Assembly: GCF_030695525.1 (NCBI RefSeq)
Contig: NZ_JAUYSS010000072.1
Coordinates: forward strand, 62,001 to 126,000
Length of the DNA stretch: 64,000 nt
Source of the DNA: Daejeonella sp.
Lineage (GTDB): Bacteria > Bacteroidota > Bacteroidia > Sphingobacteriales > Sphingobacteriaceae
Direction: 5' to 3'
Shown: positions 5,391 to 63,638 of the stretch, in pieces
Layout of the letters: every line of letters begins with the position of its first letter
How positions within the stretch are numbered: position 1 is the stretch's first letter
The notes under the pieces: generated by a model
The model's input: only the letters and a program-made list of their open reading frames with translations
Database searches by the model: none
What the model was told of the DNA's origin: nothing
Translations under genes and position numbers: made by a program

Positions 5391-5506
5391 TCCTGAAATG
5401 CTTTTTTTTGTACCTTTAGCAAAGATGCATTTTTTTTAAATTCGTTTCTGAACCAATTATTAAGAACAATTAACCATTAATTTATATTCAATAATCCATA
5501 TTGACT

Positions 5507-6760
5507 ATGCACCGTTCAAGCTATTTCCTGATTTTCGCCCTTTTAATCCTGGCATGTAATTCCCTTGAAGTTCAATCTGAGCAATCAAAGATATTATCTT
5601 TAAGCAAGGATAATCCTGATACCGAATCCACCGCTAAGCTTCGAACAGGTGCCGAACAGATCGACCAGTATCTTCCTTATCTCAAAGGAAAGCGGATAGG
5701 AATGGTAGTGAATCCAACTTCCGTCATTGGGAATACCACCGTGGTTGACAGCCTGCTAAAACTTGGAGTTAAAATTGTTAAGATTTTTGGCCCGGAGCAT
5801 GGTTTTCGTGGCGATGCAAGTGCCGGAGTTAAGGTGGATAACAGTTTTGATGCAAAAACAGGATTACCGGTAATCTCGCTGTATGGAAAACATTTAAAAC
5901 CTACAAAAGAAGATATGGACGATGTGGATTTGATGGTCTATGATATTCAGGATGTAGGCACCAGGTTTTATACCTATATCAATACCCTGCAGCATGTTAT
6001 GGAAGCCTGCGGAGAAAATAATAAAGAAGTTCTGATCCTGGATCGTCCTAACCCAAATGGTTTTTATGTTGACGGACCAATTCTGGATCCAAAATTAAAG
6101 TCAGGAATTGGTTATAATCCAATCCCAATCACTCACGGACTTACCATTGCAGAATATGCGCAAATGCTTAATGGAGAGGGTTGGATGGCAAATAAAGTCA
6201 AGTGTAACATCAGGATCATTAAGATTGCCAATTATACACATGCTACACCTTATATATTGCCGGTTAAACCATCTCCAAACCTGAACACTCCGCAATCCGT
6301 TTTACTTTACCCTTCCCTGTGTCTTTTCGAAGGTACTATCATCAGTCAGGGACGAGGAACGTATTTCCCCTTCACCATACTCGGGAATCCGGATCTGAAG
6401 GATAAATACAAATTCTCTTTTATCCCAAAAGGTATAAAAGGAATGAGTGAAACACCATTACACATGAATAAAGAGTGTTTCGGAATCGACCTGAGGCAGT
6501 ATAACACTAATAAGATCAGGAAAGAAGGAAAGATTAACCTTAGCTGGTTAATTGAACTTTATAATGCCTACCCTTATAAAGAGAAGTTCTTTGATTTCAA
6601 ACAAAGCAACCAAATGGGTAACTTTGATAAGCTTGCCGGAACATACGATCTGAAACAACAAATCATTGCCGGCAAATCTGAAGAGGAAATCCGCCAGAGC
6701 TGGGAACCCGGGCTTTCTCAATATAAGATTATGAGAAAGAAGTATTTGCTATATCAGTAG
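5507..6760 (+). CDS. namZ: NamZ-type exo-beta-N-acetylmuramidase (DUF1343) lipoprotein
   Basis: The protein is about 418 aa when started at ATG 5507; a TTG two codons earlier is less likely. It opens with a lipoprotein signal (LLILACNS). The body matches the DUF1343 family through GKRIGMVVNPTS, FGPEHGFRGD, MVYDIQDVGTRFYTY and ILDRPNPNG. Characterised members (NamZ of Bacillus subtilis) release N-acetylmuramic acid from the non-reducing end of peptidoglycan fragments. A periplasmic role in cell-wall recycling fits. It is transcribed toward fmt, from which it is separated only by a 17-unit heptamer array. The family call is firm; the exact substrate in this organism is inferred. Confidence 0.88.
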   Translation: MHRSSYFLIFALLILACNSLEVQSEQSKILSLSKDNPDTESTAKLRTGAEQIDQYLPYLKGKRIGMVVNPTSVIGNTTVVDSLLKLGVKIVKIFGPEHGFRGDASAGVKVDNSFDAKTGLPVISLYGKHLKPTKEDMDDVDLMVYDIQDVGTRFYTYINTLQHVMEACGENNKEVLILDRPNPNGFYVDGPILDPKLKSGIGYNPIPITHGLTIAEYAQMLNGEGWMANKVKCNIRIIKIANYTHATPYILPVKPSPNLNTPQSVLLYPSLCLFEGTIISQGRGTYFPFTILGNPDLKDKYKFSFIPKGIKGMSETPLHMNKECFGIDLRQYNTNKIRKEGKINLSWLIELYNAYPYKEKFFDFKQSNQMGNFDKLAGTYDLKQQIIAGKSEEEIRQSWEPGLSQYKIMRKKYLLYQ

Positions 6761-6879
6761 GGTCGGAAGCCAGAGGTCGGAAGTCGGAGGTCGGAAGGAC
6801 TACCTCATACTTCATACCTCAGTCCTCAGTCCTCAGTCCTCAGTCCTCAAACCTCATACCTCAAACCTCAAACCTCATT
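6761..6879 (+). repeat. Seventeen-unit heptamer tandem array filling the namZ-fmt gap
   Basis: The gap between the TAG of namZ (6758-6760) and the ATG of fmt (6880) is exactly 119 bases and divides into 17 heptamers without remainder. The first units are variants of GGTCGGA, then come CCTCATA, four identical CCTCAGT, and variants of CCTCAAA. The first six units are mostly purine-rich and the last eleven pyrimidine-rich. No -7 promoter element or Shine-Dalgarno site lies within the array, so fmt is probably read through from upstream. Length variation by slippage would change only the spacer. Confidence 0.9.
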
Positions 6880-7794
6880 ATGAAAATCGTTTTCATGGGC
6901 ACCCCTGATTTTGCAGTCGCCTCCTTAAGTGCCCTTTTGGATGCTGATTTCGATATAGTGGGGGTTATTACCGCAGCTGATAAACCGGCAGGCAGAGGAC
7001 AAAAAATCAGCGAATCTGCCGTTAAAAGATTTGCTGTTGAAAAGGGATTAAAGATTCTTCAGCCGGTGAAATTGAAAGATCCGGAGTTTCTAAAAGAACT
7101 TAAATTGTTAGATGCTGATATACAAGTAGTTGTAGCATTCAGAATGTTACCTGAACTCGTATGGAATATGCCCCCAAAAGGTACTGTTAACCTACACGCT
7201 TCCCTTCTGCCCCAATATCGTGGCGCAGCACCCATCAACTGGGCAATTATTAACGGAGAAAAGCGAAGTGGGGTAAGTACATTTTTTCTGAAGCAAGAAA
7301 TCGATACAGGTGACCTATTATTTGCTGAAGAGCTTGATATTGAAGATGATGATACCGCTGGTGATCTTCATGATAAACTTATGATAATTGGTGCCGGATT
7401 ACTGGTAAAAACAATCAAAGCCATTGAAGCGGGAAAATATAGGGAGATACCACAAAACACTCATCAGGAACATGAGTTGAAAAAGGCTCCAAAAATTTTC
7501 AGGGAGGATTGTCAGATCAATTGGGATCGCCCGGTTAAAGATGTTTATAACCTGATCAGGGGATTAAGTCCGCATCCTGCAGCATTTTGCCAGTTACAAG
7601 ATAAAACACTGAAAATTTTTAACGCCGCAATTGAAGAAAAAGCCATAACAGATAAGCCAGGCACAATATTGACTGATAATAAAACCTATCTCAAATTTGC
7701 CTGCCGCAATGGCTTGATTTCAGTCAGGGACTTACAACTGGAAGGCAAAAAGCAAATGAAAGTGGATGAGTTTTTAAGAGGAGTCAGGCTATAA
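6880..7794 (+). CDS. fmt: Methionyl-tRNA formyltransferase
   Basis: This 304-aa enzyme formylates initiator Met-tRNA with 10-formyltetrahydrofolate. The N-terminal formyltransferase domain opens with MKIVFMGTPDFA and carries the catalytic triad Asn104, His106 and Asp142, matching Asn108, His110 and Asp146 of E. coli Fmt, inside the HASLLPQYRGAAPI and IDTGDLL motifs. The C-terminal tRNA-binding domain follows from about residue 205. Length is normal. The ATG directly abuts the heptamer array and no other start fits the family. It is followed by a gene-free repeat region. Confidence 0.96.
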   Translation: MKIVFMGTPDFAVASLSALLDADFDIVGVITAADKPAGRGQKISESAVKRFAVEKGLKILQPVKLKDPEFLKELKLLDADIQVVVAFRMLPELVWNMPPKGTVNLHASLLPQYRGAAPINWAIINGEKRSGVSTFFLKQEIDTGDLLFAEELDIEDDDTAGDLHDKLMIIGAGLLVKTIKAIEAGKYREIPQNTHQEHELKKAPKIFREDCQINWDRPVKDVYNLIRGLSPHPAAFCQLQDKTLKIFNAAIEEKAITDKPGTILTDNKTYLKFACRNGLISVRDLQLEGKKQMKVDEFLRGVRL

Positions 7795-35220: not shown

Positions 35221-35238
35221 ACCCGAAAGCTTTCGGGT
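35221..35238. repeat. Perfect 18-bp palindrome
   Basis: ACCCGAAAGCTTTCGGGT is its own reverse complement. It lies between the rpsA terminator and the heptamer array upstream of pyrR. It could be an operator-like site or another intergenic palindromic repeat; nothing decides between these. Confidence 0.5.
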
Positions 35239-35275: not shown

Positions 35276-35310
35276 TAAACTTTTAGCTTAATCCTTTCAG
35301 CTTTTAGCTT
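35276..35310. repeat. Heptamer array upstream of pyrR
   Basis: Five consecutive period-7 units: TAAACTT, TTAGCTT, AATCCTT, TCAGCTT, TTAGCTT. Their reverse complements closely match the units after the YdeI-like gene at 57983, so the two arrays belong to one family in opposite orientation. The array covers the -33 region of the pyrR promoter. Confidence 0.7.
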
Positions 35311-35317
35311 TTTTCCC

Positions 35318-57982: not shown

Positions 57983-58017
57983 AACTGAAAGGATAAAGCT
58001 GAAAGCTAAAAGTTGAA
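57983..58017 (+). repeat. Heptamer array flush with the YdeI-like stop codon
   Basis: Five period-7 units (AACTGAA, AGGATAA, AGCTGAA, AGCTAAA, AGTTGAA) start at the first base after the TAA (57980-57982). The units match the reverse complement of those upstream of pyrR. Downstream, 58018-58127 holds nothing else recognisable. Confidence 0.75.
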
Positions 58018-58127
58018 GTTTCTATCGAATCGATTAAAAACTATCGGGTACTGCCAGCTAAATTAAAAATCGGCGACTATTAAAGAATATGTAAAATGAT
58101 TGGACAGATTTTTGCTAGTATTGATTC

Positions 58128-62878: not shown

Positions 62879-63508
62879 ATGATAGAATCAATCGTTTCAG
62901 GAATAGGATTGGGATTTGTGCTTTCGTTTCTAACCGGACCTGTATTTTTTGCTCTGATAAAAACCAGTATTGAAAAAGGGTTTTCGGCAGGTGTTTCACT
63001 TGCCGGAGGAGTAGTTGTCAGTGATGTTTTTTATGTAGGCATTAGTTTGTACAGTACATCATTTATTGCACTCGAAAACACCTATCGTCTTCAAATAGGT
63101 ATTGCAGGCAGTTCTATCCTGTTTATAATTGGACTCTATTATCTTTTCAAGAAAGTTAAAGTGAATTATGAGCAGACCAATTCTAAACGAAAAAATACCG
63201 GTTATTTTATCAAGGGATTTTTGATGTGCATTTTCAACCCGGCTATTTTACTTTACTGGCTGAGTGTAACCAGCAGTGTTATATCCATTTCCGGAGAAAT
63301 TAAACCATCCCAAATTATTCCATTCTTCGGATCAATCCTGATCACCCAGTTCAGCCTCGATGTTTTAAAAGCATATTATGCAAATAAACTAAGATACAGG
63401 ATAAAGGAAAAGAATATTGCCAGATTAAATCGTGTTGCCGGAGTACTTATACTGATCTTCGCTGCCCGTTTAATATTTAATTTAATGACAGGGCACTCAC
63501 TTATTTAA
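62879..63508 (+). CDS. LysE-family exporter
   Basis: This 209-aa protein of about six helices has the LysE/RhtB opening GLGFVLSFLTGPVFFALIKT and the internal FLMCIFNPAILLYWLSV. Members export amino acids such as lysine, threonine or homoserine lactones; the substrate here is unknown. It is divergent from the sugar transporter gene across 142 bases. A heptamer array begins directly after the stop. Confidence 0.85.
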   Translation: MIESIVSGIGLGFVLSFLTGPVFFALIKTSIEKGFSAGVSLAGGVVVSDVFYVGISLYSTSFIALENTYRLQIGIAGSSILFIIGLYYLFKKVKVNYEQTNSKRKNTGYFIKGFLMCIFNPAILLYWLSVTSSVISISGEIKPSQIIPFFGSILITQFSLDVLKAYYANKLRYRIKEKNIARLNRVAGVLILIFAARLIFNLMTGHSLI

Positions 63509-63557
63509 TTGACAGTTGACAGTTGATAATTGAATTAGTATTGAGTATTGAGACAGA
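63509..63557 (+). repeat. Heptamer array flush with the lysE-like stop codon
   Basis: Seven period-7 units begin at the base after TAA (63506-63508): TTGACAG twice, TTGATAA, TTGAATT, AGTATTG twice, AGACAGA. The unit differs from the arrays at 6761 and 57983. Confidence 0.7.
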
Positions 63558-63603
63558 ATCTTAATTTCAATTGAATCACATAATTTGGCTGAAGAAGAAA
63601 TAC

Positions 63604-63638
63604 AACTTATAACTTACAACCTATAACTTACAACTTCC
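63604..63638. repeat. Heptamer array flush with the downstream stop codon
   Basis: Five period-7 units (AACTTAT, AACTTAC, AACCTAT, AACTTAC, AACTTCC) end at 63638, exactly next to the stop codon (63639-63641) of the minus-strand gene. Together with 63509-63557 they bracket the gap between two convergent genes. Confidence 0.75.

Follow-up and report, generated by a model that had tools for sequence, protein, structure and literature searches.

A gap filled to the last base
One of the features of the Daejeonella sp. window analyzed here (the whole stretch of 64,000 nucleotides) is a seven-base repeat that takes up all of the space between two genes, namZ and fmt. The question that it raises is whether such a spacer serves the downstream gene, or belongs to something of wider occurrence in the genome. 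The genes and the two parts of the repeat are as follows.

5501..6760, plus strand: namZ (exo-beta-N-acetylmuramidase), upstream gene; ORF with Pfam PF07075 and PF20732 (NamZ_N/NamZ_C)
6761..6802, plus strand: left purine part of the array, six units resembling GGTCGGA/AGTCGGA; unit listing and Tandem Repeats Finder (TRF; 6761-6797); array start largely kept in congeners
6803..6879, plus strand: right pyrimidine part of the array, 11 CCTCANN units; TRF and unit listing; inverted similarity score 12
6880..7794, plus strand: fmt (methionyl-tRNA formyltransferase), downstream gene; ORF with Pfam PF00551 and PF02911 (Formyl_trans_N/C)

The 119 bases (6761-6879) between the namZ TAG (6758-6760) and the fmt ATG (6880-6882) divide into 17 heptamers with no remainder, exactly as an earlier note on this DNA had stated. 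Eighty-four of 112 positions equal the base seven further on, against 28.5 +/- 4.5 and a maximum of 48 in 20,000 shuffles of the gap, and TRF reports periods of 7, 14 and 21 at 6761-6879. A zero remainder has by itself a chance of one in seven, and in this gap it is common by descent to the congeners; it is thus the period, not the remainder, that lies far beyond chance. Tandem seven-base units in such excess place the array in the heptanucleotide-repeat class (LSSR/STRR). The left part begins directly 3′ of the namZ stop codon and the right part ends one base 5′ of the fmt ATG. Two units (AGCCAGA at 6768 and AGGACTA at 6796) fit poorly, and the regular units contain no GGG runs. The same note described a switch from GGTCGGA-like to CCTCANN-like units, which is borne out by the six left and 11 right units. 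Read on the opposite strand the latter are TGAGGTN-like, so that the array consists of one heptamer family in two orientations, with an inverted match between the parts that scores 12.

The namZ-fmt gap in related genomes
Among the 30 fmt loci examined, 22 have namZ upstream (L028 being judged from a namZ end at a contig edge; its gap is 151 nt by sequence). In four congeners the gap measures 112, 84, 77 and 49 bases, or 16, 12, 11 and 7 units, compared with 119 in the source genome (G000); unit number therefore changes in whole sevens between species, each represented by one genome, which is a property of the LSSR/STRR class as well. Alignment of the gap in five close congeners places the indels inside the array, while both ends and the orientation junction are largely kept. 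Similarity of fmt places the source genome closest to Sphingobacteriaceae. The best named match is that of a Sphingobacterium thalpophilum MAG (L140; 83% identity, Pedobacter species giving 66-70%), the 49-base gap of which is identical to that of G011.

At a score threshold of 14 or more, 11 of the 16 same-genus gaps carry a period-7 array (G000, G009, G019, G007, G011, G017, G008, G016, G002, G018 and G012). The other five (G001, G004, G005, G006 and G015) have none at this threshold; the array-less gaps are 16, 80, 91, 92 and 97 nt long. At a greater distance from the source genome the units are different ones, as in G017 (GTTGTCT and CTCTCAA), G002 (TAGGTTA) and G012 (AAAGAAT). The gap length is divisible by seven in the five close species, in G016 and in G012, and by coincidence also in G006, which has no array; G008 leaves a remainder of 3, and G002 and G018 one of 5. 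An exact fit has thus been inherited in one clade and is not maintained across the genus. In two distant Bacteroidota (L209 and L184) other heptamers, CAAGGGA and TTCCGAA, occupy the namZ-fmt gap, hinting that this gap tolerates arrays there as well.

These data bear on a further proposal of the earlier note, namely that a slippage-tuned spacer could alter how translation initiation at fmt is coupled to upstream genes. The number of units does differ between species, and the array extends to the ATG, as such tuning would have it. Very different spacers, however, occur in relatives that keep both genes, with lengths from 3 to 655 nt, with arrays and in several cases without any; 80 named loci yielded 37 namZ-fmt gaps, 34 of which lack an array and three of which have one; and similar arrays are found between convergent and divergent genes as well. 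Tuning of fmt is therefore unsupported and seems most improbable, and the array allows no conclusion about fmt itself.

Heptamer arrays across the genome
A sample of 852,272 bp, about 20% of the 4.2-Mb draft (73 contigs), was searched, with a score threshold of 16 for most array counts. It contains 79 period-7 arrays that are mostly intergenic and a further 12 within called genes. Of the tested periods that are not multiples of seven, period 8 gave 13 intergenic arrays and periods 5, 6, 9, 10, 11 and 13 at most eight each; shuffling of the first 455,897 bp left a single intergenic period-7 array. Extrapolation from 9.3 arrays per 100 kb gives roughly 400 for the whole genome. In being numerous and mostly intergenic, the arrays also agree with the LSSR/STRR class. 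Further examples in the window are the following.

35294..35312, minus strand: short weak array of AAAAGCT (score 14, under the threshold of 16)
57988..58021, plus strand: AAAGCTG-like period-7 array in an intergenic gap, the preceding stop codon being 5 nt away (TRF)
63507..63552, plus strand: array of TTGACAG, then TATTGAG, from a stop codon onward (TRF)
63601..63638, minus strand: array of TAAGTTG that runs up to the convergent gene's stop codon (TRF)

The 12 arrays inside called ORFs, for instance that at C27:244035-244127, may reflect ORFs that are not real genes, or heptamers that have spread over a gene end. The congeners G009 and G019 contain 12 arrays per 100 kb, and G018 has five intergenic period-7 arrays in its sample. 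In other genera of the family, at 100 kb each, none were found in G026 and G036 and four intergenic ones in G035. Two more genomes, G344 and G182, were chosen because CCTCA heptamers had been found in them, so that they provide no measure of array frequency; G182 has 11 arrays in 200 kb, too few of them near gene edges for a good test. Of 395 genomes from the phylum, 45 contain the pattern CCTCANNCCTCANNCCTCA, and the backward control matches in a number of genomes too.

A short palindrome, CCCGAAAGCTTTCGGG / ACCCGATAGCTATCGGGT, is located at 35221-35237 of the window and at about 22415 of contig C40. The copy at 35221 is bordered on both sides by heptamer-like CTCCATTCTC DNA, and degenerate copies are seen within the heptamer gaps of L028, L034 and G009 C47. 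The exact palindrome occurs twice in 852 kb, each time more than 40 nt from any scored array, from which we surmise that it may be a small palindromic insertion.

Position and strand relative to codons
The earlier note had proposed a genome-wide search for enrichment of arrays at codon boundaries, and this enrichment exists. Each array was placed at random 5,000 times within its own gap, arrays within 5 nt of a codon being counted as near. Thirty-eight of 82 stop edges have an array this close, where 7.7 +/- 2.2 are expected, a fivefold excess; for start edges the figures are 13 of 74 and 4.6 +/- 1.8. None of the 5,000 placements reached either number. Genes were called mechanically, as the longest ORFs of at least 80 aa, and start edges are therefore rougher than stop edges, which may explain the weaker signal at starts. 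Arrays often extend into the called gene end, by up to 22 nt.

A second characteristic concerns strand. In 38 of the 41 arrays near stop codons it is the purine strand that is in sense, while only 50.5% of the sequences after all 683 called stops are purine-rich. Near start codons the sense strand is purine in eight arrays and pyrimidine in nine. The stop rule recurs in G344, a member of an unrelated lineage (of the same class but another family, with a GC content of 0.45 and heptamers that include ACGTGAG), where arrays adjoin 12 of 26 stop edges, compared with 3.5 at random (0/5,000), and the sense strand near stops is purine in 12 cases and pyrimidine in two. Its start edges show no enrichment (4/24 vs 3.8), and there the sense strand is purine in four and pyrimidine in six. 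Pooling of G009, G019 and G007 gives 19 of 51 stop edges against 6.1, and a purine to pyrimidine ratio of 19 to 2, an agreement that is not independent of the source genome, many of these arrays being orthologs of its own.

The stop triplet itself recurs seven nucleotides on in 12 of 39 stop-abutting arrays, compared with 38 of 683 genes (Fisher p 3e-6), which fits a codon-edge seed for part of the stop-abutting arrays. Slippage from such a seed had been put forward in the earlier note as one possible source of the perfectly filled gap, the other being selection for the period. The proposal gains from the changes in whole units (49-119 nt), from the enrichment at edges and, in a part of the cases, from the repeated stop triplet. 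Exact filling as a rule does not stand: five of 53 array gaps are multiples of seven in length, and two of nine among those at least 70% filled. Unit numbers vary between species and other arrays sit at codon edges, the opposite of the identical numbers, and of the lack of other arrays in phase with codon edges, that the note named as telling against its reading.

The idea that heptamers act as three-frame stop signals was dropped, since a stop codon is present in 57 of 79 purine-strand units, but in just as many (54.2) once their letters are permuted.

Inheritance and turnover
The arrays are inherited in place. In 37 comparisons of orthologous gaps the source genome carries an array, and in 34 of these the relative carries one too; in 145 others the source genome lacks an array, and an array is present in the relative in three. 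The comparisons have gaps and species in common and are not independent. Both figures indicate that array positions are old. The idea that arrays transpose from gap to gap in this genus was rejected on the same counts, with joint presence in 34/37 and joint absence in 142/145.

The units at these positions do change. At C10:4768 the unit is GAAAGCT in the source genome and GAAGTCT in G009; at C10:28178 it is AAAGCTG in the source genome and TAAGTTA in G019. The array at C27:119879 (119879-119943; orthologs L136-L139) has GAGTATT in the source genome, G019 and G007, and GAGATTT in G009 and G011. This split is at odds with the ranking of the species by fmt identity, which suggests that they have recombined with one another.

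The source genome contains more than ten different heptamers, and the same heptamer often turns up in more than one gap: the 76 arrays give 69 such identical pairs, compared with 6.6 (maximum 17) when letters are permuted. Independent slippage of local seeds would not yield this much recurrence across unrelated gaps, so that some means of copying, or a preference for certain sequences, is required; neither was found in this analysis.

Recurrence of a few heptamers in many gaps, together with the same stop edge and strand rule in two lineages, is what might be expected if the heptamers were sites at which a sequence-specific DNA- or RNA-binding protein marks gene ends. Such a protein would have to accommodate more than ten heptamers in one genome, and the replacement of one family by another in the same gap between sister species would hardly be tolerable for a specific site. 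We regard this as very unlikely.

Potential for RNA structure
Arms of the same family in inverted orientation could pair in the transcript, and the arrays might thus be RNA (or cruciform) hairpins that end or stabilize transcription units. In the 32 gaps with two or more arrays the first and last array have an inverted similarity of 9.84, against 7.75 when permuted (77/5,000). Both arms differ together between species at C27:92006 (TTGAGAG/CTCTCAA and TTGACAG/CTGTCAA) and at C27:119879, and convergent gaps are somewhat richer in arrays than divergent ones (14/61 vs 9/80, p 0.07). Direct similarity of the first and last array, however, is elevated too (31/5,000), and the inverted-arm match is therefore not specific to pairing. 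A purine-left/pyrimidine-right polarity is found in only 13 of these 32 gaps, 45 gaps have a single array, and at C10:125509 a single arm has changed. For the namZ-fmt gap the predicted RNA fold is ordinary relative to shuffles (z -0.55). No intrinsic terminator was detected in it, there being no stable hairpin and no T run; a terminator at this place would cut off fmt, and the gap contains no promoter-like TAnnTTTG motif. A hairpin function of the arrays is accordingly doubtful, while a role in a subset of gaps is possible. As a general property of array gaps the hairpin was rejected: their two halves match better than permuted (91/5,000), but complementarity between the halves is raised to a similar degree in gaps that have no array.

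Origin of the namZ-fmt array
The namZ-fmt array is one of a genome-wide set of heptamer arrays inherited in place, which probably formed through slippage or unequal recombination and need no function in fmt. Copy number would shift by replication slippage or by unequal recombination. Arrays would grow in non-coding DNA until they reach codons protected by selection, which would leave them flush with stops and sometimes with starts. New unit variants may then sweep within an array, and occasionally a whole array might be replaced by another family through recombination. The change of polarity in the middle of the namZ-fmt array looks like an old inverted duplication, such as might arise when strands switch at a hairpin. 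Three observations count against this explanation: the same heptamers recur in unrelated gaps more than local slippage predicts, slippage alone does not give the purine-sense rule at stops, and the inverted arm match in two-array gaps (77/5,000) hints at structure.

Comparison with known heptamer repeats
Cyanobacterial STRRs are tandem heptanucleotides in bacterial DNA, and the arrays described here are like them in form, with no claim of common descent. The comparison with cyanobacteria drawn in the earlier note is apt, intergenic heptamers being a known class in the sections of PMC4692102 that treat them, where Calothrix heptanucleotides are also mentioned. The main subject of those sections, by Rehm and colleagues, is the GGGAATC / GGGGA(C/T)T repeats of Xanthomonas and Nostoc, for which a quadruplex is considered (PMC4692102). 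As they are portrayed there, these repeats are intergenic, accompany mostly the same genes in related species, vary in length and sequence and are fewer between divergent genes, all of which is also true for the present arrays. The stop part of their edge and strand rule is followed as well (38/41 in the source genome, 12/14 in G344). Near starts the Xanthomonas and Nostoc repeats (PMC4692102, same sections) favor the antisense strand, whereas here there is no preference (8 vs 9 in the source genome; 4 and 6 in G344). Their units are G-rich; the present arrays comprise many families, and AATGGGG is the one consensus with a G-run among those examined. Almost free of G-runs, the arrays do not in general form quadruplexes.

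The agreement at stops could mean that a process common to unrelated bacteria, indifferent to the heptamer and tied to the termination of translation or transcription, or to replication meeting it, seeds repeats at the stop codon, with the purine strand in sense, and spreads a limited set of heptamers from gap to gap. We think this unlikely. If true, it would make the quadruplex idea for Xanthomonas and Nostoc a special case, since the stop edge and strand rule holds here almost without G-runs.

Direct repeats of TAACTGA have been reported from Beggiatoaceae, Cyanobacteria and five Bacteroidetes by MacGregor (PMC4679880). According to the parts of that paper on their distribution, some Bacteroidetes intergenic regions carry other heptamer repeats too, and relatives can be without them. 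These are likewise intergenic heptamers, and one array consensus in G019, AACTGAT, is a rotation of TAACTGA; the unit is absent from the namZ-fmt gap (units GGTCGGA/CCTCANN). The system in PMC4679880, as set out in those parts, consists of one heptamer that lies mostly directly upstream of starts in the main genome, while here there are many families, mostly at stops, with positions conserved throughout the genus.

Among the intergenic tandem repeats in the SPADE survey of prokaryotic genomes, heptamers rank first in abundance, and the portion of it that concerns them offers no clear functional clue (PMC6344855). The LSSR work of Mrazek (2007) is, like SPADE, a survey related to the arrays found here; to such surveys the edge, strand and ortholog analyses are added. 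Keyword searches of the open-access literature found no paper that deals with such arrays in Sphingobacteriaceae or in Pedobacter. The kind of repeat, intergenic heptanucleotide repeats, is already known, and what is new is a dense and well-comparable case. Dozens of arrays that stay fixed in their gaps throughout a genus while their units change, under a strong stop and strand rule that is independent of the heptamer, make it testable why the unit is seven and why gene ends are its place.
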